From an uncultured SAR116 cluster alpha proteobacterium (lineage in GTDB: Bacteria; Pseudomonadota; Alphaproteobacteria; Puniceispirillales; Puniceispirillaceae), in contig CACJUX010000007.1 of assembly GCA_902596655.1 (NCBI GenBank), positions 1 to 64,000 of the forward strand: a stretch of DNA of 64,000 nt, written 5' to 3'. Within the stretch, counting starts at the first letter, position 1; each line of letters opens with the position of its first letter. The notes under the pieces were generated by a model that was not told where the DNA came from, did no database searches, and saw only the letters and a program-made list of their open reading frames with translations. Shown here piece after piece: positions 31,289 to 60,998 of the stretch. Both the position numbers and the translations under genes were made by a program.

Positions 31289-31412
31289 TGTGAATGGCAT
31301 AGGATTTTTTGCATTGTGTTAAACCGGTGAATTATTAATGCTTCATAGAGTTACGGCATAGCTCGGGTTGCACAAAGAGACGTGTGCAAGTAACCAAAAA
31401 ACGGTCAATGTT

Positions 31413-32441
31413 ATGAAAATTTATGAAATTTTGTCGAATCCATATTGGATGCCAAGCAGTCTAAGCTTTGAAGAAATATTTTTTGAAGAAATTTCAGAGC
31501 ATACGCTAAAACAATCGTCCTTTCTTGATCAACGAGCCGTGGGAAAAACTGGCAAGTCTATAAAGGTCCCTATTCGACACCTTTTAGACAATTGCCATTT
31601 AATCGATGCCAGTGGGTCAATAAATCATATTTTTCACATATCACATGTCGGGTCGACATTTATTGCCAAACTTTATGATGAATTTTTTGATACCACTGTT
31701 TATAGGGAGCCAACTGCCTTCAAGGGGTTGGCGTTCTTGTGTCGTGAAACAAAAAACGGCGTTACGCCATTTGGTCCCGAAGAACTGTCTCGTTTATATA
31801 ATCTACTTTGCAAGCTCATGATGAGAGGAAACAAAGCGACAATAATAAAACATTCAAGTCAAAATTTGATTATCCCAGACTTCAATGCTGCCATGGGGGT
31901 TGGCCCTGCGCCTGTTTTGTTTGTTTACACACCCCTAAAGAAATTCTTATGTCATGGTTTAGCTTCACCAGGGCTGCAGTCTGACGCCGTAAATGGCGCA
32001 GATGCGCGCATAAAGTTTTTCAATTCAACATCTACGCTTGATACGGTGGCCCTAAGAAAAATGAGCAAAATCCAGCAAATTTCTCTTATTTGGGTTGCAG
32101 AGATGATCAAAGTTCTGGCCAGATTTGATGAAGAACGCAATGATCATCTTCTCAATTTTGATGAAGTTATGTCCTCTGAAACCAAAAGCGAAATGATAAA
32201 TATTCTTTCGACTGCGTTTGACATTCCAGTTGTGAGAAGTCAGATCGCAAAAATAGAAGGTTCTCCAATTTGGGAGAAAAATTCAAAAGGGCTTTCCGAG
32301 GGTGGGTACGCGTCACGGCAGCAAAAGATAAGTCAGACTGAAGTAAAGGAAAAAGATCAGATCATTGCGGGTATGAACTGGGTCGCTAACCTTTGTGAAA
32401 GAAATATTATGTTCCGGCCCCTGCTCAAATACATTGAATAA
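31413..32441 (+). CDS. Sulfotransferase-like protein with a degenerate PAPS loop
   Basis: A 342-residue protein I cannot assign to a characterised family. The stretch HISHVGSTFIAKLYDEFFD near residues 76-94 resembles the nucleotide-binding loop of bacterial sulfotransferase-family proteins (typical H.ARCGSTLL...L), with Arg/Cys replaced by Val. A later FVYTPLKKFLCHGLA sits where a 3'-phosphate motif would lie. It starts at the ATG at 31413; a TTG at 31368 is also open. Base composition is AT-rich compared with leuS or parB. It precedes the TPR-sulfotransferase by 88 bases on the same strand, which supports a linked role. It could equally be an inactive paralogue. Confidence 0.62.
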   Translation: MKIYEILSNPYWMPSSLSFEEIFFEEISEHTLKQSSFLDQRAVGKTGKSIKVPIRHLLDNCHLIDASGSINHIFHISHVGSTFIAKLYDEFFDTTVYREPTAFKGLAFLCRETKNGVTPFGPEELSRLYNLLCKLMMRGNKATIIKHSSQNLIIPDFNAAMGVGPAPVLFVYTPLKKFLCHGLASPGLQSDAVNGADARIKFFNSTSTLDTVALRKMSKIQQISLIWVAEMIKVLARFDEERNDHLLNFDEVMSSETKSEMINILSTAFDIPVVRSQIAKIEGSPIWEKNSKGLSEGGYASRQQKISQTEVKEKDQIIAGMNWVANLCERNIMFRPLLKYIE

Positions 32442-34401: not shown

Positions 34402-35094
34402 TTATATTTTAAGAGTTGCGTTTTTGGGTTGTATAAATTTTGGGGCATTTGGTAATGGATCCGTAGGTTGAGATTTTTTTCGGAAAATCAGATTCCACGC
34501 GATAGTAATCCTTTCCTCTTCCGAATCGTTTGGGTAAACAGAATGTAATAATGTAGATGGAAAAACAATCATTTCTCCAGCTTTGGGTCGCATTGATACC
34601 TTGGGCGCAAAGGCGTTAGAGTTTAATTCTTGGTATATGTGATGATCAAACCTCGAATTTACGAACTCTATCATACCACTTTCACCGCTTTTCACAGCGG
34701 GTTGTTTTACATAATAAACTCCTGATATGTGGAATCTGCCGTGTGTGTGAATGGAGTTAAAACCACCTTTCTTATTTATGTTTACCCAAGCATTTGCTTC
34801 AAACTCATAACTAGCAATGTTTATCTTGGCTCCTATTTGTTGCGCGTAGGTGCTTGCTGCAATTGGAAACATTTTTGATATCTTGGAAAATCCAGGTTCT
34901 GGCCTTGACATCAGTCCGTCGGGAGAATGCCAACTGTCCCCTTTATTTGATACATTCACTCCATGTGCATCTTTGCGCCACGATCTTGCCTCGCTGGCGA
35001 TTAGCTTGTTTAACTGTTCATGATCGCTAACTGTAAATTTTACTATTGGGCATGAAAACAAATAATTTGTGTTTATGAATTCAATTTGTTGCAT
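34402..35094 (-). CDS. Putative 2OG-Fe(II) oxygenase (TIGR02466/PF13759-like)
   Basis: A 230-residue cupin-type protein. SIHTHGRFHISGVYYVKQP near residues 117-135 gives the expected His-containing strand of this family (normally H.H....SGVYY). PKAGEMIVFPSTLLHSVYPN supplies the distal His, and RITIAWNLIF the Arg strand. FEANAWVNINKKGGFN also fits. The start at 35094 has GGAG six bases upstream. It converges with the TPR-sulfotransferase and is in the same AT-rich stretch. Many relatives of this oxygenase are fused to TPR domains (established knowledge), hinting at a common substrate class. Substrate unknown. Confidence 0.8.
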   Translation of the reverse strand: MQQIEFINTNYLFSCPIVKFTVSDHEQLNKLIASEARSWRKDAHGVNVSNKGDSWHSPDGLMSRPEPGFSKISKMFPIAASTYAQQIGAKINIASYEFEANAWVNINKKGGFNSIHTHGRFHISGVYYVKQPAVKSGESGMIEFVNSRFDHHIYQELNSNAFAPKVSMRPKAGEMIVFPSTLLHSVYPNDSEEERITIAWNLIFRKKSQPTDPLPNAPKFIQPKNATLKI

Positions 35095-35166
35095 ATTCCA
35101 CTCCATACATTATTAAAACGAACATGGTCGAACAAATAGAGAGTTCGTGGGATATCGGCCTCTTTT

Positions 35167-37904: not shown

Positions 37905-37979
37905 TGGCTGGGGCGGTAGGATTCGAACCTACGATACACGATACCAAAAACCGATGCCTTACCACTTGGCCACGCCCCA
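37905..37979 (-). tRNA. tRNA-Gln (anticodon TTG)
   Basis: On the minus strand a 75-base tRNA folds with acceptor stem TGGGGCG/CGCCCCA, discriminator G and encoded CCA. The D arm is GCCAAGTGGTAAGGC. The anticodon loop TTTTGGT reads TTG. The T arm is GTAGGTTCGAATCCTAC. Anticodon and U-A first pair fit glutamine. Confidence 0.97.
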
Positions 37980-38045: not shown

Positions 38046-40178
38046 TCATTTGATTCTGTAAACCCGGTAATCGGGGTAGGCATTAATCAGCGGGGTGAAA
38101 TGATCGGGATCGAAATCACCGTGATAAAAGAGCTTGTTGAAGGTTGAATGATATAGCCTTGGGTGTAACAGCTGATCCGCCCAAGCTGAGCCGCCAAGCC
38201 GGTTGAACTGCAGGAAAAACCCGCTCGGGTTTGGGTAATAAATGCTGGCACCGCGCATCCCATCATCTGTCTTTACTGCACCAGACAGAACAGCTGTGCC
38301 ATCAACCGTTCCGTCCTGAAGATTAATTTGTCTGCCGCTACAGTTTAACAGGTAGCCATTCCCAGTGCAGGCAATATCCCTGTATTCGAGCTGGTTTGTG
38401 CCATGATGGATTGGCAATGGTGTGCCGGCTTGGCTGTCCCATAGTCCCAGCGCGCTAATGGTAGGCGTCCACAGCACCATTTTGTTGGTCAGCACAAGAT
38501 AGATATCCGATCGATTATTTGCTGGACCTCGCAAAAAGACGTTGTCAAGCTTGGTGTTGCTAACGCTCTTCTCCACAAGTTCAGTGGTCCCGTCATTGCC
38601 AATATATTTTAGGATACGCGCGCTCTCGCCCTGATCGCGCGACATCAATGCGCGTGCCAAAAGATGTGTCTTGGGTCCGCGTTGCGTTCCCCCATCGACG
38701 AGGGTGGGAAGCTGGCTGAATAAGGTTGCAGTATAGCCATAATCCCACCATGTGGCGATCACTGGCTCGCGATCGCGTTCGCTTTGCCGAACTTGGTCAC
38801 CTAGAAACCTAAATCCCTCAACGACCTCACGGGAAAAGGCAGCGTCTGGAACGTAGGGTTTTAACAGGGGGTTGAACGAGACAAAATAGGTCGTGACAAA
38901 CATGATAGTAGCAGAAAATGTCTGTGCTTTGGCGAGCCCTGTTTTATTTGTTTCGGAGCGTACCATTATCAGCTGGTCGAAAACATATCTGACGAGGGTC
39001 AGCACTAGCCAAGCAAAGCCAAACCAGAAAATAGGCGCCGCAAAAAATACCACCCGGTTGCCAAATACAATGTTCATTGCTGCGAGACCGATAGCCGGTA
39101 GGAACACCACGGCAAAGACCGGCGTTACAAAGGCCCACCCAATAACCCCGGTAACCGCAAGCCCGGCAAGCCAGATATTTCCCATCAACGCATTCAGAAA
39201 GTCGTTAGCTGACAGTGCTTCCAGTTCTGAGATGGCGTTGAGCGTGTTTGGCAGCTTCATTTGGCCGACTGAGGTTATGGTTCTGGTGAAATCAGCGACA
39301 TGAATGGATGGGCCAAAATTGAGAGTTCCAATCAAGGCAAGATAGACGGCGCCTAGAAGGGCGGCGCGTGTCAATGAATGGTTGAAACAGTAGGTTACCC
39401 AGACAATAGCAAGCAGATAAAACCAGTTCAAAATGGGTTTTGGCCACCACCAATGAAACATATGCGTAGTCGCCGCCGCCGCACCACAAAGTGCCAACGC
39501 CAACCAGATATTTTTTGCTTTGCCTGCCCAAATAATCAAGGCCATGATCAGATAGAAAAAGCCGAGATTAAGCTGGTCGGTATCCAGCCGTCCTGCAGAG
39601 GTTCGCCCAAGAAAGGCGATACACAGCGAGCTGCCAAGCGCTGCGATCGCACCTTCACTCCAGAAACCGGCTGCGCCAAAGACGAGAATGATCGCCAACA
39701 CCGTCAGCGCTATTGAAACGGGGAGCATTTGATGCGCCGTTACCGAGAGTGATTTGATCGATGCATCAGGAGAGAGCTGGCTGATGAGAACCCCCAGCAG
39801 CGGTTCATCAAGGATTGAATGCCGCACTGTTGGAGCTTTGTCGATATAATCGGGATAGCTACGCTTCCTAGTAAGGTTTTCGCTACTGCCATGGGTCTTG
39901 ATTTGCTGCGCCACCAGCAGGAAATAGGCGGCATCCGTTGTTGAAAACGCAGGAAAATCCCCAACATAATAGATATCCTGCGCATCGCTCCATTGGTCAT
40001 ATTGCCAGACCCGCATATGTGCCGATGCGAACAGGGCAAGGCAGATCAATACCGCGTTTGTGACAAGGTTCAGTCGATGCGTGGGCGCTTCAAGCCAAGG
40101 TCTGTCCGTGACGCGCTGGTGCCATGATTTCAACCTTTGCAGATATACACGAACAAACAAACGTTGTGTTCCCAACAT
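38046..40178 (-). CDS. STT3/PglB-type oligosaccharyltransferase
   Basis: Predicted integral-membrane enzyme that moves a lipid-linked oligosaccharide to asparagine of N-x-S/T sequons. The 710-residue product has about a dozen hydrophobic segments up to residue ~450 and a soluble C-terminal domain. The family catalytic motif WWDYG is perfect in EPVIATWWDYGYTATLF near residue 485. An N-terminal acidic loop FSTTDAAYFLLVAQQIK and SAGRLDTDQLNLGFF match the metal-binding D/DTD loops. ISELEAL near 330 fits the TIXE-like region. No other N-glycosylation gene is adjacent; ispE follows 75 bases away on the same strand. Bacterial homologues are best known from Campylobacter relatives, so the call is by motif. 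Confidence 0.87.
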   Translation of the reverse strand: MLGTQRLFVRVYLQRLKSWHQRVTDRPWLEAPTHRLNLVTNAVLICLALFASAHMRVWQYDQWSDAQDIYYVGDFPAFSTTDAAYFLLVAQQIKTHGSSENLTRKRSYPDYIDKAPTVRHSILDEPLLGVLISQLSPDASIKSLSVTAHQMLPVSIALTVLAIILVFGAAGFWSEGAIAALGSSLCIAFLGRTSAGRLDTDQLNLGFFYLIMALIIWAGKAKNIWLALALCGAAAATTHMFHWWWPKPILNWFYLLAIVWVTYCFNHSLTRAALLGAVYLALIGTLNFGPSIHVADFTRTITSVGQMKLPNTLNAISELEALSANDFLNALMGNIWLAGLAVTGVIGWAFVTPVFAVVFLPAIGLAAMNIVFGNRVVFFAAPIFWFGFAWLVLTLVRYVFDQLIMVRSETNKTGLAKAQTFSATIMFVTTYFVSFNPLLKPYVPDAAFSREVVEGFRFLGDQVRQSERDREPVIATWWDYGYTATLFSQLPTLVDGGTQRGPKTHLLARALMSRDQGESARILKYIGNDGTTELVEKSVSNTKLDNVFLRGPANNRSDIYLVLTNKMVLWTPTISALGLWDSQAGTPLPIHHGTNQLEYRDIACTGNGYLLNCSGRQINLQDGTVDGTAVLSGAVKTDDGMRGASIYYPNPSGFFLQFNRLGGSAWADQLLHPRLYHSTFNKLFYHGDFDPDHFTPLINAYPDYRVYRIK

Positions 40179-40253: not shown

Positions 40254-41108
40254 CTACATAATCTTCGTTGCAACAGCCCAGATGTTTTTGGCAAGAAGCT
40301 CGCTGGCCGCTGTCTTACAGGCGTTCTGCGATGAATAAATGGCAAAACAAGTCGCTCCACTACCCGTCATGCCAACGGCATCTGCGCCGTCCTGCGCCGC
40401 GAGAGTGGTGAGCAAGTCGGCAATCTCAGGCATCAACCGGCAAGCAGGTGCCTGAAGGTCATTGCCATATCGCGTCAACTGACGGGGGCTTGCACCGTCA
40501 ATTGCGTCAACGGTGTTCTGCTGTTTCCTAGTTACATCGGCACCTGTCAGGGATTTGAAAACATCGCCCGTTGCAAGCTTCGTTCCCGGATTGGCAAGTA
40601 GGATTGGTCCGGTATTATTGACGACCAGCGGCGAAACGATATCTCCCACCCCTCCCATGCGCGCCGGTGTCATATGCAGGCAGGCAGGCACATCTGCCCC
40701 CAGACGAAGGGCGACTTGATGAAGGGCATCAGGTGAAAGCGGCGAGAGGGTGTGTTGATTGAGATAGCGAAGCAACGCCGCGGCATCAGCGGAACCACCG
40801 CCAAGGCCAGCCCCCACCGGAATGTTTTTCTCAATCATAATTCTTAAAGGCTCGAATGTTCCACCTGCCTGACGAAAGCCGTCCAGACAGCTGGCGCAGA
40901 TATTGGTATCGCCATCATCCCTGAGGATTTTGGCAAAAGGACCGGTAATGTTGATTTCATCTGCCGCGGCGTGGTCGATGGTGATCCGGTCACCAAATGC
41001 GGTGAATACAACAACGGACTCTAGCGTATGATAGCCGTCATTGCGCCTTCCAGTGATGTGCAGAAACAGATTGACCTTGGCGGCGGCATGGAGTGAGGCC
41101 GGGATCAT
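40254..41108 (-). CDS. ispE: 4-diphosphocytidyl-2-C-methyl-D-erythritol kinase
   Basis: GHMP kinase of the MEP isoprenoid pathway. The 284-residue product has AAAKVNLFLHITGRRNDGYHTLES near the N-terminus (cited as AKVNLFLHITGRR and DGYH). The ATP loop is NIPVGAGLGGGSADAAALLR near residue 98, and the C-terminal GHMP glycine loop is VGMTGSGATCFAIY. Its ATG overlaps the stop of the upstream TPR gene by 4 bases, indicating translational coupling. The pair TPR-ispE is common in alphaproteobacteria. Confidence 0.96.
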   Translation of the reverse strand: MIPASLHAAAKVNLFLHITGRRNDGYHTLESVVVFTAFGDRITIDHAAADEINITGPFAKILRDDGDTNICASCLDGFRQAGGTFEPLRIMIEKNIPVGAGLGGGSADAAALLRYLNQHTLSPLSPDALHQVALRLGADVPACLHMTPARMGGVGDIVSPLVVNNTGPILLANPGTKLATGDVFKSLTGADVTRKQQNTVDAIDGASPRQLTRYGNDLQAPACRLMPEIADLLTTLAAQDGADAVGMTGSGATCFAIYSSQNACKTAASELLAKNIWAVATKIM

Positions 41109-49943: not shown

Positions 49944-50095
49944 TGGTGTGGTTTGCTGAATGAAGGTTTGGCGCTGTTGGATGTGACGCTCATTGGTTCT
50001 TTGAGTATTACGCAAACCCTTCCTGTTTGTTTTCCGCTAGTTGAAAAACTCTGTTATTGTGTCCAATAACCGTGGTTTTTTTGACTAGGATAGCA

Positions 50096-51394
50096 ATGCA
50101 TACCCATGCGTTTTCTTCTGATATGAGTGAGCAGGTTAAGCGTATCCGTCAACGCACGAGTCGGCGGTATTTGGCGAATGTTGTTCGTATGCTGTTATCG
50201 CTATCATGTCTTATTGGTATTCAAATAGCCGTGTCGCTGTTCTTGGAAGACCAACATCTTCTTGGTGCACCCGATACGATCAGAATGTCGGCGCTGGTGA
50301 TCACTGGCATTTCCCTTATCACATATCTGTTTGCCTTGCGCATTTTCAGATGGACACGGTTTCGTACTGGCGAGCAGCTCCTATTTGTGTGGTTGATTTT
50401 GGGTCTTTTTGGCACGCTCAGCCTGATGCTGTTCCGGCTTCCCTATTCGGTTACGTTCTTGGGGCTGGTTTACCCGACTGCAACCGTTATTCTGCTCCTG
50501 TTCGGTAAAAGCCTCTCAAAGCGTTCAAGCATGCGTATTGGTGTCCCAGCGCAGTTGTTCCCGCAGCTCGACAGCCGTGCTGGTGCCTTCGTTTCAATGG
50601 AAAGCGCATCCTTACCAGAAGACACTATCGATGCTGTGGTCGTTTCAGATGAACAGCTGGCAGACTCCAGTTGGACGCCGTTCCTTTCTTGGTGTGCGCT
50701 TAATGCTGTGCCGGTCATCATGCTTCATGATTATGTCGAGGCGCAGACAGGGCGTGTTGATCTCGAGAATTTTACATTCAACGACCTGCTTCGTGTGCGG
50801 TCATCTGATGCTCATCTGTTTGTAAAACGGTCTTTTGATATGATTTTTAGCTTGGCGTTTCTACTTTCTTTTGGCATTCCCATGATTCTGGTGGCGGTGT
50901 TGATCAAGCTCGAAACCACTGGACCAGCTATATTTGTGCAGCAGCGTGCCGGTTTGGGGGGCGCGTCCTTTGCCATGTATAAATTTAGATCGATGGTAGC
51001 CAATGCCGAAAGCGAAGGTGCGCAATTTGCATCAATGGGTGACAAGCGTGTAACGCATATTGGTAAATTCATAAGGAAATACCGTATCGATGAATTGCCG
51101 CAGCTTTACAATGTGTTGCGTGGTGATATGAGCCTTATTGGACCACGTCCTGAGCAGATGGAGTTGCTTGAAGAGCTCATTGAGAAAGTCCCGCTTTTTC
51201 CTTTACGCCACTCTGTGAGACCCGGGATTACGGGATGGGCGCAGGTTTGTCAGGGCTATGCCTCAGATATCGACAGCAGCAGCAAGAAAATCTCCTATGA
51301 TCTTTTCTACATCAAGAATCTGTCTTTCCTACTTGATATGACGATTATCATGCGAACAATCAGGATTTTGCTTACAGGCTTTGGTTCGCGCTAA
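50096..51394 (+). CDS. Undecaprenyl-phosphate sugar-1-phosphate transferase (bacterial sugar transferase, PF02397)
   Basis: Initiating enzyme that loads the first sugar phosphate onto a polyprenyl phosphate carrier for polysaccharide or glycan assembly. The 432-residue product has four hydrophobic segments in the first ~140 residues and a variable CoA-binding-like middle. The catalytic domain (about 240-430) begins KRSFDMIFSLAFLLSFGIPMI. It has KFRSMVANAESEGAQF, KYRIDELPQLYNVLRGDMSLIGPRP (quoted as DELPQLYNVLRGDMSLIGPRP less one residue) and RPGITGWAQV. The start at 50096 follows AGGA; a TTG at 50057 is open too. It could initiate exopolysaccharide, O-antigen, or the lipid-linked glycan used by the STT3 enzyme. 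Confidence 0.92.
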   Translation: MHTHAFSSDMSEQVKRIRQRTSRRYLANVVRMLLSLSCLIGIQIAVSLFLEDQHLLGAPDTIRMSALVITGISLITYLFALRIFRWTRFRTGEQLLFVWLILGLFGTLSLMLFRLPYSVTFLGLVYPTATVILLLFGKSLSKRSSMRIGVPAQLFPQLDSRAGAFVSMESASLPEDTIDAVVVSDEQLADSSWTPFLSWCALNAVPVIMLHDYVEAQTGRVDLENFTFNDLLRVRSSDAHLFVKRSFDMIFSLAFLLSFGIPMILVAVLIKLETTGPAIFVQQRAGLGGASFAMYKFRSMVANAESEGAQFASMGDKRVTHIGKFIRKYRIDELPQLYNVLRGDMSLIGPRPEQMELLEELIEKVPLFPLRHSVRPGITGWAQVCQGYASDIDSSSKKISYDLFYIKNLSFLLDMTIIMRTIRILLTGFGSR

Positions 51395-51891: not shown

Positions 51892-54063
51892 TTAACTGGC
51901 ATTAGCATCTAGGATTTTTCGCTCTAGGCGCCGGCGATGCAGGACAGGTTCGGTGTATCCTGATGGTTGCGTCCGCCCCTCAAAAACGAGATCGCAGGCA
52001 GCTTGGAAGGCAATGGATGCGTCAAAATCATTTGCCATTGGCCGATAGAGAGGGTCGCCCTCATTCTGCCGATCCACTACCGCAGCCATTTCCTTCATGA
52101 TTTCCATGGCAAGCTGCTGTGAGCAGACGCCATGATGAATCCAATTCGCAATATGTTGAGAGGAAATCCGAAGGGTTGCCCGGTCCTCCATTAGACCAAT
52201 ATTATGAATGTCCGGAACCTTCGAGCAGCCTATACCCTGATCAACCCATCGTACCACGTAGCCGAGAATACTCTGGGCATTGTTCCGCAATTCTTGACGA
52301 ATATCATTATCCGACCAGTTTGGACGGGATGCGGTGGGCACAGATAGGATTTCTTTGCGGCTTGCAGGTTTGCGTGTAGATAGCAATTGCTGTCGGTCAC
52401 GTACATTTACCTCGTGGTAATGCAGGGCATGCAATGTTGCCGCGGTCGGTGAAGGTACCCAGGCACAATTGGCACCTGCCAGAGGATGATTAATTTTCTG
52501 TTCCATCATATTGGCCATCAGATCGGGCATAGCCCACATGCCTTTGCCGATCTGCGCCTTGCCACCAAGGCCACAGGCAAGTCCTATATCCACATTTCTA
52601 TCTTCATAAGCCCTGATCCACGCTGCATTTTTCATTTCACCCTTGCGGATCATGGCGCCAGCTTCCATCGACGTGTGTATCTCGTCACCTGTTCGGTCGA
52701 GAAATCCGGTATTGATAAATACGACACGCTTGCTTGCGACACGGATACATTCTTTCAGATTAATAGTTGTGCGGCGCTCTTCATCCATGATTCCCATCTT
52801 GATGGTGTTGGTATCAAGTCCCAGAACATCCTCGACCGCGGCAAAGATTTCTGTGGCAAAGTTCACTTCATCTGGCCCATGCATTTTGGGCTTTACGATA
52901 TAGACCGACCCTGTCGCCGAGTTCGCCTTTCGTTGCAGATCGGGAAGTGCTCCGGCAACCGTCATGAAAGCGTCCATGATGCCTTCTGGCACTTCGCTGC
53001 CATCGGCAAGAAGAATGGCAGGATTGGTCATCAAATGGCCGACATTGCGAACCAGCATCAACGCACGTCCGTGAAGCACCGCTTCGCTTCCATCCGGTCT
53101 TGTGAAGCAAATATCATCGACTAGTTTGCGTGTGACGGTTTTTCCTGCCTTCTCAAACGTGTCCTGAAGCGTCCCCCGCATCAACTTGTTCCAGTTGCCA
53201 TAGGCGAGGATTTTATCCGTCGCATCCACCGCGGCGATTGAGTCCTCGCAATCCATTATGCTAGAAATCGCCGCCTCGATGCGCACATCATTAACGCCGG
53301 CTGGATCATCCTTACCAATGACGCCAGCATGATCTATCATAATCTGCATATGCAGTTCATTGTTGGTTAAAATGATCGACTTTGGGCTGGCCGAATCGCC
53401 AGTATAACCGGTAAACGAGTTAGCATTGGCAAGCGTGGTGCTGCCTCCCCCACATTCGATCTCAAGTGCGCAATTAATAATCGCGAGATTGGTGACATCA
53501 GCCCACGAGGCGTTGGCCAGTGGTGTAGCTTTGTCCAGAGTTTCGCGCACATATGCAATGACCTTTTGACCGCGTATTGCATCGTACTTAGATGTTTGTG
53601 CTTTGTGATTGGTCTGCGGAATCACATCGGTTCCATAGAGTGCGTCATAAAGGCTGCCAAAGCGAGCATTTGCGGCATTCAACGCATAGCGGGCGTTGGT
53701 GATCGGCACAACCAGTTGGGGTCCCGCCACGCGGGCAATCTCAGCGTCCACGTCTGCTGTTGCGACCTCAAAATTGGGTCCCTCATCGAGCAAATAGCCA
53801 ATATCTGTTAGAAATGTCTCATAAGCATTCTGGTCGATGCCATTCTGTGCGTTTTCTTTTAGCCAAATATTGATCTGATCTTGCATTTTCTGTCTGATGG
53901 CCAGCAATTCTCGATTGCGTGGCGCCAGTGCATGAACCGATTTGTCAAACCCTTCCCAGAAATGGTCAGCCGATATCGAGGTGCCTTCCAGAAGCTCATC
54001 ATTGACGAAATTATACAGAGCCGTGTTGACGGTAAGGTTTCCACAGTTTGTGAAATTAGTCAT
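51892..54063 (-). CDS. glcB: Malate synthase G
   Basis: Condenses glyoxylate with acetyl-CoA to form malate, used with glyoxylate or glycolate. The 723-residue product matches the G isoform in length. It shows [41 protein letters not shown] (catalytic acidic site), the domain with [46 protein letters not shown] and [16 protein letters not shown] (each cited in part). No isocitrate lyase is nearby, suggesting use in glycolate or glyoxylate assimilation. It sits alone between the apt relic and the phosphomutase. Confidence 0.97.
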
Positions 54064-54251
54064 GAGTTCACTCCAAAGTGATAAGGGCAGGTAAAAAGCA
54101 CGAAAAAAGCATGTCTAAATACAGGCAAACCGCGCCATATAACAAGCTTTTTCGACCCTTAAATAGCGAAAAAACTACAGAATTCAACATCCATTCCTGC
54201 ATGGTGAATGTTGGATAAATGGCCACTTTATGACGTCAGTTTTTACGCCGC

Positions 54252-55637
54252 CTAACCAAACGACCATCTGATACCAGCATCGGCCAATGTGGCCTGAATC
54301 TCCGAGACAAGCTGCGACAATGCTTCTGGGCTGAAAGCTTCAGCGCGGGCGACAAGCGTCGCTTCGGTGTTCGAGGCGCGGATTAGCCACCATCCGGTAG
54401 TGCTAGTCACGCGAACGCCGTCAATTGTATTGATCGCCTCCGGGGCATGACTCTGCGTGACGATAGCTTGCAATTTTTCCATTACGGCAAATTTCCTGTC
54501 ATCGGCACAATCAATCCGCAATTCGGGTGTTGCATGCTGTTTTGGCAAACCATCCATGAAGGCGGTGATGGATTGGCCGGTGCTAACCATTTGGGTGAGG
54601 ATGCGCAGCGCCACGTAGATGGCGTCGTCAAATCCGAAATAATCATCTGCAATGAAGATATGACCTGACATTTCGCCGGCCAAGGGCGAACCAGTTTCCG
54701 CCATTTTCTTTTTCATATGGCTGTGCCCGGTTTTCCATATTGCCGCATCTCCCCCTGCAGCAGTTAACATATCCAAAGCTAACTGTGATGATTTTATATC
54801 AAGCAGAAAGGTCTCACCTGGGTGCCGTTTGGCGACATCCTGAGCAAGGTAGGCCGTCAAAAGATCGCCCGGCACTTGTCGGCCTTGAGCATCAACGACG
54901 CCAATGCGGTCACCATCTCCATCAAAACCTATTCCCAGGTCGGCCGCTTCTGATTTGACTGCTGCCCGCAGGATTTCCAGTGTTTTAGGGTCCACCGGAT
55001 TGGGATGGTGGTTGGGAAAAGTGCCATCGACCTCGGAGAAAAGGACCTGATGTTTTCCTGTCAGACGCCTAACTACTGCCTCAGTGACCGGCCCGCTGGC
55101 ACCATTGCCACAATCCCATACAACCGACAGATCGCCGGCGTCAGCAGACTGCAAAAGCCGGTTTATGTATTCATTAAATATTGACTGCACTTCACATTTA
55201 CCCCCTTTTTTCGGGGGAACGCCTGCGGCGCATCGGGCACCAAGATCGGTGATTTCCTCACCAAAAAATGACTTCCCGTCCATGACCATCTTGAAACCGT
55301 TATGTGTTGGCGGATTGTGGCTGCCAGTAACTTGGATCGCGCCGTTTGCATCAAGATGCGTCGCAGCAAAATACAGCATTGGTGTCGGTCCACAGCCAAT
55401 ATTCGTTACATTAGCGCCGCCATCAACCAATCCGTCGATCAAGGCAGCGGCAAGCTGTGGGGATGAGAGGCGCCCATCTCGGCCGACAACAACTTTGTTT
55501 CCCAACGACTTGCTGGCAAGGCAGGCGGCGAAAGCACGGCCAATTGCTGTTGCGTCCGCGGGGCTGAGGGTTTGATTGTAAACGCCACGAATATCATAGG
55601 CACGCAGAATGCTGGGGTGAAGGGTAACGGTATTCAT
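54252..55637 (-). CDS. Phosphomannomutase/phosphoglucomutase
   Basis: Alpha-D-phosphohexomutase that interconverts hexose-6- and hexose-1-phosphates; both glucose and mannose substrates are likely. The 461-residue product has LRAYDIRGVYNQTLSPADA at the N-terminus and the catalytic phosphoserine loop QVTGSHNPPTHNGFKMV near residue 100. The metal loop IGFDGDGDRIGVVD is near 240, the sugar loop is GEMSGHIF and the phosphate-binding region is RASNTEATLVARAEA. Its ATG overlaps the galU stop by 4 bases, so galU and this gene are coupled for UDP-sugar supply. Confidence 0.94.
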   Translation of the reverse strand: MNTVTLHPSILRAYDIRGVYNQTLSPADATAIGRAFAACLASKSLGNKVVVGRDGRLSSPQLAAALIDGLVDGGANVTNIGCGPTPMLYFAATHLDANGAIQVTGSHNPPTHNGFKMVMDGKSFFGEEITDLGARCAAGVPPKKGGKCEVQSIFNEYINRLLQSADAGDLSVVWDCGNGASGPVTEAVVRRLTGKHQVLFSEVDGTFPNHHPNPVDPKTLEILRAAVKSEAADLGIGFDGDGDRIGVVDAQGRQVPGDLLTAYLAQDVAKRHPGETFLLDIKSSQLALDMLTAAGGDAAIWKTGHSHMKKKMAETGSPLAGEMSGHIFIADDYFGFDDAIYVALRILTQMVSTGQSITAFMDGLPKQHATPELRIDCADDRKFAVMEKLQAIVTQSHAPEAINTIDGVRVTSTTGWWLIRASNTEATLVARAEAFSPEALSQLVSEIQATLADAGIRWSFG

Positions 55638-58853: not shown

Positions 58854-58979
58854 GTTTCGCGCCCCTTTTTTAGTTGCTCTTGAGCTTTTTTGCCAAAATG
58901 TTAATCCATGATAATTGATGGTTCAGGTGGAATATTCAAGGGAAACAATTTTTCGCTCATTATTTATGGTATTTTAAGA

Positions 58980-60998
58980 ATGAACGCTGATCAATTCATA
59001 CAAAAAGCAATGTCTTTAGCTAAAAAAGGTGAGACGGAAAAAGCCGTGGCATTATTAAGACAAGTGTTGGCTAAATATCCTTCAAATAAAAGAGCTCAAA
59101 ATGGGGTGAGAAAATTATTTGTAAACGCAGACCACAACCAAGTTTCTCACCCTCCAAAAGCTGCAATTGATGAAATCATTACTTGCCAAAAACGCAGTGA
59201 ATTTTTGCTTGCTATCAAAAAATCTGAGCAAGTTCTTGAGAGTTTTCCATATTCATTCTTTATGTGGAATTTGTTGGGTGTTTTGTACAAAAAAGTTGGA
59301 GAGAAAAAAAAATCAACAGACGCCTATCACAATGCGTTGTTGATTAATCCAGATTATGCTGAGGCATACTTTAATATTGGTAATTCTCTTTTCCATCAGG
59401 GCTTATTTGAAGAGGCTGAAAAAGCATTCGCAAAGGCAGCAAATCTTCAGCCAAAAAACGCCAGAAACTTCTTTAATTTAGCACATGTTCATAACGAACA
59501 AGGCAAAATTGAAATAGCTGAAAACGATCTACAAACAGCAATAGAGCTTGATGAAAATTATGCCGAGGCATTTCATTTATTGGCTCAAATTTACCATAAA
59601 AAAGGTGCTATAGATTTGGCATTAATTAATTTTGAAAAATCCATAAGTTCAAAACCGGATTACCCTGAGGCATATAACAACATGAGCAATGTTTTGTGGG
59701 ATTTAGGAAGAGCAGAAGAAGCCATCGAAGCGCTCGAGAGAGCTGTGACGTTGAAACCTAGTTTGTTTGGTGCAGCTAGCAAAAAAGCATATTTCTTAGC
59801 TAGTAAAAATATTTGTGGGACGAAGTGCTATCTTGATGAGGTAACGCGTTTAAATAGAAGAATAAGAGAAAATTTGGCCACTTCATTTGTTTTTGAGAAA
59901 AAACGACTTGTTAATGACAGAGTCAGATTGGGATTTGTTTCAGCTGATTTCCGAGACCATCCCGTTGGTTATTTCTTAGAGAGTCTTATCAGAAACTTGA
60001 ACAAAGATAAGCTAGACTGTTTGGCATTTAGCAACTCGCCTGAAGAGACGACATTGACAAAAAGGATCAAGTCCCAATTTACAGAATGGCATTCGATATA
60101 TGGAATGACAGATACGGATGCGGCTTCGCTTATTTACGAGGCAAAACCCGATGTACTGATAGATCTTTCTGGCCACACTGGTGGAAACAGACTGCCTGTT
60201 TTTGCTTTACGGCCGGCCCCAATTCAAGCGACCTGGCTTGGATATTTTGCATCAACGGGCATAGAAGCTATGGATTATATTATAGGTGATAAATTTGTTA
60301 CGCCGCATGATTCGCAATGTGAATTTACAGAAAAGATTATTCAACTGCCAGGTTGTTATTTGTGTTTTTCCGAACCTGAATTCAATATTGAAGTTGGACC
60401 GCCTCCTTCCATAAAAAATAAAAATATTACATTTGGTTGTTTAAATAGAGCAGATAAAATATCAAAAGAAGTAATAAGTGTTTGGAGCCAAATTTTAAAA
60501 AAGGTCCCAAAATCCCAGCTTTTTTTCAGAGGTGGAGGATATAGTGGCAAAGTCAGCAGTAGCATAATTGATAATTTTGAGAGTTTTGGGGTAGAAAAAT
60601 ACCGTTTGAAATTTGCGGAAATGACGAGTCGCAAGAGATTTCTTTCGTCTTATAATCAGATAGATGTTGCGCTAGACCCCTTCCCATACCCTGGAGGTAC
60701 TTCGACCTGCGAGGCGCTTTGGATGGGGGTGCCCGTAATCACAAAAAAGGGGTTTAACTTTCTCTCCAGAATGGGCGAAACCATCCTCCATAACACTGGA
60801 AATGGAGATCTTTGTGCCAGAAACAATGAAGAGTATGTGTCGAACGCAGTGGAGTTGGTAAAAGACATTTCATTTTTGAGCAAAACCAGAGCAAAGCAAC
60901 GTGAGCAGGTTTTGAAAAGCTGTATTTTTGACGCTAAGTCATTTGCTACCAATTTCGAAAATATGATTTTTAAATTGAACAAAATAAATGAGAAATAG
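58980..60998 (+). CDS. TPR-repeat O-GlcNAc transferase-like glycosyltransferase (GT41)
   Basis: A 672-residue protein related to eukaryotic OGT and plant SPINDLY. Residues about 1-270 are tetratricopeptide repeats (AYFNIGNSLFHQGLFEEAEK, FFNLAHVHNEQGKIEIAEND, AYNNMSNVLWDLGRAEEAIE). Residues about 300-670 form the GT41 catalytic region. VRLGFVSADFRDHPVGYFLE has the catalytic-type His. DVLIDLSGHTGGNRLPVFALRPAPIQATWLGY follows (cited as LIDLSGHTGGNRL and APIQATWLGYFASTG). ITFGCLNRADKIS and DPFPYPGGTSTCEALWMGVPV are the UDP-sugar-binding part. It would glycosylate Ser/Thr of proteins; donor and target unknown. AT-rich, three bases before the UDP-glucuronate decarboxylase gene. Confidence 0.92.
   Translation: MNADQFIQKAMSLAKKGETEKAVALLRQVLAKYPSNKRAQNGVRKLFVNADHNQVSHPPKAAIDEIITCQKRSEFLLAIKKSEQVLESFPYSFFMWNLLGVLYKKVGEKKKSTDAYHNALLINPDYAEAYFNIGNSLFHQGLFEEAEKAFAKAANLQPKNARNFFNLAHVHNEQGKIEIAENDLQTAIELDENYAEAFHLLAQIYHKKGAIDLALINFEKSISSKPDYPEAYNNMSNVLWDLGRAEEAIEALERAVTLKPSLFGAASKKAYFLASKNICGTKCYLDEVTRLNRRIRENLATSFVFEKKRLVNDRVRLGFVSADFRDHPVGYFLESLIRNLNKDKLDCLAFSNSPEETTLTKRIKSQFTEWHSIYGMTDTDAASLIYEAKPDVLIDLSGHTGGNRLPVFALRPAPIQATWLGYFASTGIEAMDYIIGDKFVTPHDSQCEFTEKIIQLPGCYLCFSEPEFNIEVGPPPSIKNKNITFGCLNRADKISKEVISVWSQILKKVPKSQLFFRGGGYSGKVSSSIIDNFESFGVEKYRLKFAEMTSRKRFLSSYNQIDVALDPFPYPGGTSTCEALWMGVPVITKKGFNFLSRMGETILHNTGNGDLCARNNEEYVSNAVELVKDISFLSKTRAKQREQVLKSCIFDAKSFATNFENMIFKLNKINEK

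Follow-up and report, generated by a model that had tools for sequence, protein, structure and literature searches.

A probable PglB-type N-oligosaccharyltransferase inherited within the SAR116 order of Alphaproteobacteria

PglB-type N-glycosylation is hardly described in Alphaproteobacteria in the literature outside subscription journals. We asked whether an open reading frame in a 64,000-nucleotide stretch of an uncultured SAR116 genome (the window) encodes a genuine N-oligosaccharyltransferase (OST), or whether it represents a glycosyltransferase of another function or the remnant of a transferred gene. As an earlier note on this DNA had described, the reading frame lies between tRNA-Gln and ispE and carries the motifs DAAY (residues 82-85), DTD (199-201), and WWDYG (477-481) (Table 1). 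Its proposed membership in the STT3/PglB family is supported: the protein matches PF21436, the STT3/PglB/AglB core, with 50.3 bits (E 4.5e-13; curated cut-off, 23 bits) and no other Pfam family, and PglB is its nearest solved structure. The PglB equivalog NF050801, the only NCBIfam family that was matched, scores 71.3 bits, far below its cut-off of 1300, and the sequence relatives in the PDB comprise C. lari and C. jejuni PglB and eukaryotic STT3, with no others. Comparison with two related genomes gave dN of about 0.087 and dS of about 0.35 (G001) and dN of about 0.16 and dS of about 1.01 (G003), indicating purifying selection. This selection, the PF21436 score, and OST matches in 37 of 101 relatives show that the reading frame is not due to chance.

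Table 1. Coordinates in the window of the OST gene, its flanks, its key residues, and a candidate initiating transferase
Feature	Position	Strand	Evidence
PglB-type N-oligosaccharyltransferase gene, 710 aa	38046..40178	-	ATG ORF, Pfam, PDB sequence matches, model
tRNA-Gln(TTG), flank of OST site	37905..37979	-	
ispE, opposite flank of OST site	40254..41108	-	
D82 = PglB D56 (metal, acceptor Asn)	39933..39935	-	Invariant in A1 and A2; role, PMC7226087
D199-T-D201, DXD metal site = PglB D154/D156	39576..39584	-	Invariant in 18/18 SAR116-order sequences
E318 = PglB E319	39225..39227	-	Invariant in A1 and A2
A330 at PglB R331 (minus-two) position	39189..39191	-	Alignment
R375 = PglB R375 (donor pyrophosphate)	39054..39056	-	Invariant in A1 and A2
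WWDYG, sequon (+2 Ser/Thr) recognition motif	38736..38750	-	WWDYGY invariant in A1 and A2
W570 at PglB I572 (MXXI) position	38469..38471	-	Trp in 18/18 of SAR116 order
WcaJ/EPS-type polyprenyl-phosphate sugar-1-phosphate transferase, candidate initiator of the earlier note	50057..51394	+	PF02397

The predicted structure bears on the first alternative, namely that the protein is a GT-C glycosyltransferase of other function (ArnT, PMT, O-linking, or lipid-modifying) that merely resembles STT3. An AlphaFold2 model built from alignment A2 (the window protein with 23 named or more distant proteins) reached a pLDDT of 86.5 and a pTM of 0.87 and displays the GT-C fold with a C-terminal periplasmic domain. 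When the model was compared with the PDB by Foldseek, PglB ranked first (6gxc and 5ogl, TM 0.71), followed by STT3 and AglB with TM scores of about 0.50-0.58, whereas Pmt4 and ArnT reached only 0.34 and 0.29. Searches of Pfam and NCBIfam returned no match to the ArnT or PMT families, and on the strength of both results an ArnT or PMT identity was rejected. Enzymes of other function do belong to the same GT-C superfamily, and genes of the Wzy_C O-antigen ligase type adjoin the OST in some relatives; set against the fold ranking, the missing family matches, and the presence of WWDYG and all PglB metal residues in 18 of 18 sequences of the order, we consider this alternative highly unlikely.

The active site itself is preserved. 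In PglB, residues D56, R147, D154, D156, E319, R375, WWD, and Y468 bind the metal, the acceptor Asn, and the donor (PMC7226087). By alignment, their equivalents in the window protein are D82, R192, D199, D201, E318, R375, W477-D479, and Y482, and all of these, together with an unbroken WWDYGY at 477-482, are invariant in the 18 SAR116-order sequences of alignment A1 (the window protein and 17 proteins of related genomes). The earlier note had named the loss of metal-binding acids, or a closer likeness to PMT or ArnT, as grounds for abandoning its assignment; the alignment retains the catalytic acids D82, D199, D201, and E318, and the fold ranking places PglB closest. The acceptor pocket shows a peculiarity at the position of PglB I572, which belongs to the MXXI motif and contacts the +2 Thr: all 18 sequences of the order carry Trp there, Campylobacterota carry Ile, and other lineages mostly Lys. 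The MXXI motif of Campylobacter-type PglB was not found in the window protein, which reads MVLW. This order-wide Trp in the +2 pocket is the most interesting feature of the SAR116 OST. By replacing the Ile or Lys that contacts the +2 Thr, Trp570 might have abolished sequon reading, or a real OST might transfer its glycan mainly to water or a non-protein acceptor; however, the main +2 contact, WWD, is invariant, and we regard a loss of sequon reading or an altered acceptor of this kind as very unlikely.

The position of PglB R331, which relates to the acidic residue at minus two, is occupied by Ala in the window's genus, by Arg in several SAR116 genera, and by various residues elsewhere. A relaxed sequon for the window OST is only a prediction, since R331 is not the sole determinant of the minus-two rule (PMC4894442), and Ala330 alone leaves the specificity unsettled, since the most relaxed PglB, that of D. 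gigas, keeps the R331 equivalent (PMC4894442). Two further residues, Cys604 and Cys613, never vary among the SAR116 sequences and recur in most relatives outside Campylobacterota, but they are missing from the Campylobacterota PglB rows checked; to judge from the alignment, a disulfide between them is possible.

The 37 OST matches among the 101 relatives come from 16 of 20 genera. Most of the matches are nearly full-length and some are partial; G081 holds a marginal fragment only, and in G007 and G009 the gene is in pieces, possibly owing to frameshift or assembly. One OST-positive SAR116 genome is complete, and we take it to be that of the cultured Puniceispirillum marinum. Broader sampling bore out the rarity of the domain in the class: PF21436 occurs in 3 of a sample of 385 alphaproteobacterial genomes, all of the window's family, and in 5 of the 398 genomes of a phylum sample, the window counted. 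A 74% identical OST comes from MED-G116 (L024; Puniceispirillales, Alphaproteobacteria), which belongs to the window's genus, and it is by such named matches that the clade was recognized as SAR116. In a tree with several long branches elsewhere, the SAR116-order OSTs form a single clade (100/100) with the family split f3|(f2,f1), whose sister group consists of Myxococcota, Nitrospirota, and Desulfurellales proteins, not of Campylobacter. The three families also share a location, with the OST on the ispE side of a response-regulator/tRNA-Gln neighbourhood in f1 (the window's genus and G010), f2, and f3. In the OST-negative genomes G015, G017, G023, G025, G028, G063, G064, G066, G067, and G069, ispE adjoins tRNA-Gln without an OST, and in G005, G011, and G020 the OST lies elsewhere in the genome and this site is empty. 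Because the clade follows the family taxonomy and three families share the ispE/tRNA-Gln site, the OST is no isolated acquisition, and the simplest reading is a single acquisition in an ancestor within the SAR116 order, followed by vertical descent, loss, and relocation. A recent single transfer was rejected on account of the one clade that follows taxonomy, the shared site, and the empty sites. Instead of a stray gene of one alphaproteobacterium, as first supposed, we find a gene that is old, vertically inherited, and often lost in the order.

Within the 64 kb window there is indeed no pgl cluster. Housekeeping genes flank the OST here and in most close relatives, and a single pgl locus of the Campylobacter type, uniting the OST with an initiator, a flippase, and glycosyltransferases, was not encountered. 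The lack of a nearby cluster, the frequent absence of the OST from relatives (present in 37 of 101), and its fragmentation in G007 and G009, which may itself reflect frameshift or assembly, would suit a transferred gene that survives only as a cryptic or functionless remnant, with no donor pathway. In Helicobacter, however, dispersed pgl genes are the norm, and H. pullorum has them at five loci (PMC6025236); purifying selection, an active site intact in 18 of 18 sequences, and vertical inheritance across three families leave such a remnant very little credence. The label "orphan" is apt locally, for the window, but does not extend to relatives with glycan genes beside the OST or to the window's own genome, which bears glycan clusters elsewhere. 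A sugar-nucleotide epimerase adjoins the OST in G006, G008, G018, G022, and G027, the last with a WecA-type PF00953 transferase directly downstream; a Wzy_C gene does so in G005, G020, and G031, and GT4 and EamA genes in genus g8. In co-occurrence tests, none of five families proved to be a marker of an OST pathway: homologues of the epimerase, the WecA-type transferase, Wzy_C, a PglK-like ABC protein, and a PglC-sized transferase are also widespread among genomes that lack the OST. The GT4 protein (c17) has matches of at least 100 bits almost solely in OST-positive genomes (exceptions, G052 and the borderline G039), and it was not found in the window's genus. The glycan genes near relocated OSTs are suggestive only, since their families, GT4 excepted in part, are common in OST-negative relatives.

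In the window's own genome (G000; 73% complete, 109 contigs), adjoining genes on contig C1 (13894-17725; L153) encode a UDP-GlcNAc 4,6-dehydratase-like protein, a PglC-sized sugar-phosphate transferase of 202 aa, and a PseC-like aminotransferase. The trio is part of a long glycan cluster that includes genes for sialic-acid-like synthesis, and the contig also bears Wzy_C and a UDP-GlcNAc 2-epimerase. A second sugar cluster, on contig C6, includes a distantly PglK-like ABC protein (53580-55331) that scores 217.6 bits with the MsbA model and 205 bits with the PglK model. The lack of a PF01943 (Wzx) flippase match in G000 is uninformative because the genome is 73% complete. At the best Wzy_C match of this genome (C1:63934-65172), internal stops (TGA, TAG) were reported, yet a 414-aa reading frame is open there. 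The initiating transferase that the earlier note had placed at 50096 is a real PF02397 gene about 10 kb from the OST, but it is of the WcaJ/EPS type, a family also present in OST-negative genomes, and we rejected it as a demonstrated initiator for the OST. Elsewhere in the window, a TPR protein with a Glyco_transf_41 domain (58908-60998, +; OGT/NGT-like, with a weak match to the NGT model) possibly represents a second, cytoplasmic route of protein glycosylation. Another TPR protein is fused to a sulfotransferase domain (PF13469; 32530-34338, +) and followed by a 2OG-Fe(II) oxygenase (34402-35106, -), and a 357-aa reading frame without a Pfam match (31368-32441, +) occupies the same place across the window's genus.

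Taken together, sequence and model point to a genuine, probably active PglB-type N-OST, and we put at roughly 0.8 the probability that the gene encodes an active single-subunit enzyme, inherited within the order, whose donor glycan comes from genes elsewhere in the genome and is probably shared with surface polysaccharide. Counting against this reading are the low NF050801 score, the identity of about 20% to Campylobacter PglB, the frequency of the partner families in OST-negative relatives, and the missing Wzx match in an incomplete genome. Residing in the inner membrane and acting at its periplasmic face, the enzyme would use a glycan preassembled on undecaprenyl diphosphate, a donor bound via R375 and a divalent metal that D82, R192, D199, D201, and E318 would hold. 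It would then transfer the glycan to the Asn amide of N-X-S/T sequons in exported proteins, with WWDYG and a Trp570 pocket gripping the sequon. The source of the glycan would probably be a Wzx/Wzy-type surface-polysaccharide route encoded elsewhere, and the OST would descend from one ancestral gene at the ispE/tRNA-Gln site, with many losses or moves. It is tempting to speculate further, and here we are doubtful, that the SAR116 order practises general N-glycosylation of envelope proteins with a sequon chemistry of its own, marked by the Trp of the +2 pocket and by the lack of a minus-two Arg in the window's genus. Such a system would read plain N-X-S/T, its preference for Ser or Thr perhaps altered, and would borrow glycans from the surface-polysaccharide pathway. 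An intact, conserved OST across SAR116 would extend such glycosylation to abundant marine Alphaproteobacteria. If the envelope proteins of a common ocean bacterium do carry N-glycans, this would matter for phage adsorption, for grazing, and for the pools of dissolved glycoprotein, and glycoengineering would gain OSTs whose acceptor pocket is unexplored.

The SAR116 OST adds to the known PglB family in a hardly described taxon. With Campylobacter lari and C. jejuni PglB (5OGL, 6GXC, 3RCE) it has in common the whole-length predicted fold, the metal site, WWDYG, and the donor Arg, but it is only about 20% identical to them by alignment, carries Trp for I572 and, in the window's genus, Ala for R331, has two extra conserved Cys, and lacks an adjoining pgl cluster. 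Eukaryotic STT3 and archaeal AglB share its family, mechanism, and WWD motif, with a lower structural match, and the Lys of their DK motif (PMC7226087) is Trp in the window OST. The Desulfovibrio PglBs with a relaxed sequon, in which the minus-two rule can be absent (PMC4894442), are by description likewise distant, non-Campylobacter bacterial OSTs. In the tree, the SAR116 OSTs are closest to PglB-like proteins from Myxococcota, Nitrospirota, and Desulfurellales (L031, L052, L033, L034, L036), which share the catalytic residues, one row excepted at D199, and the Cys pair, and which mostly carry Lys at the +2 pocket position where SAR116 carries Trp.
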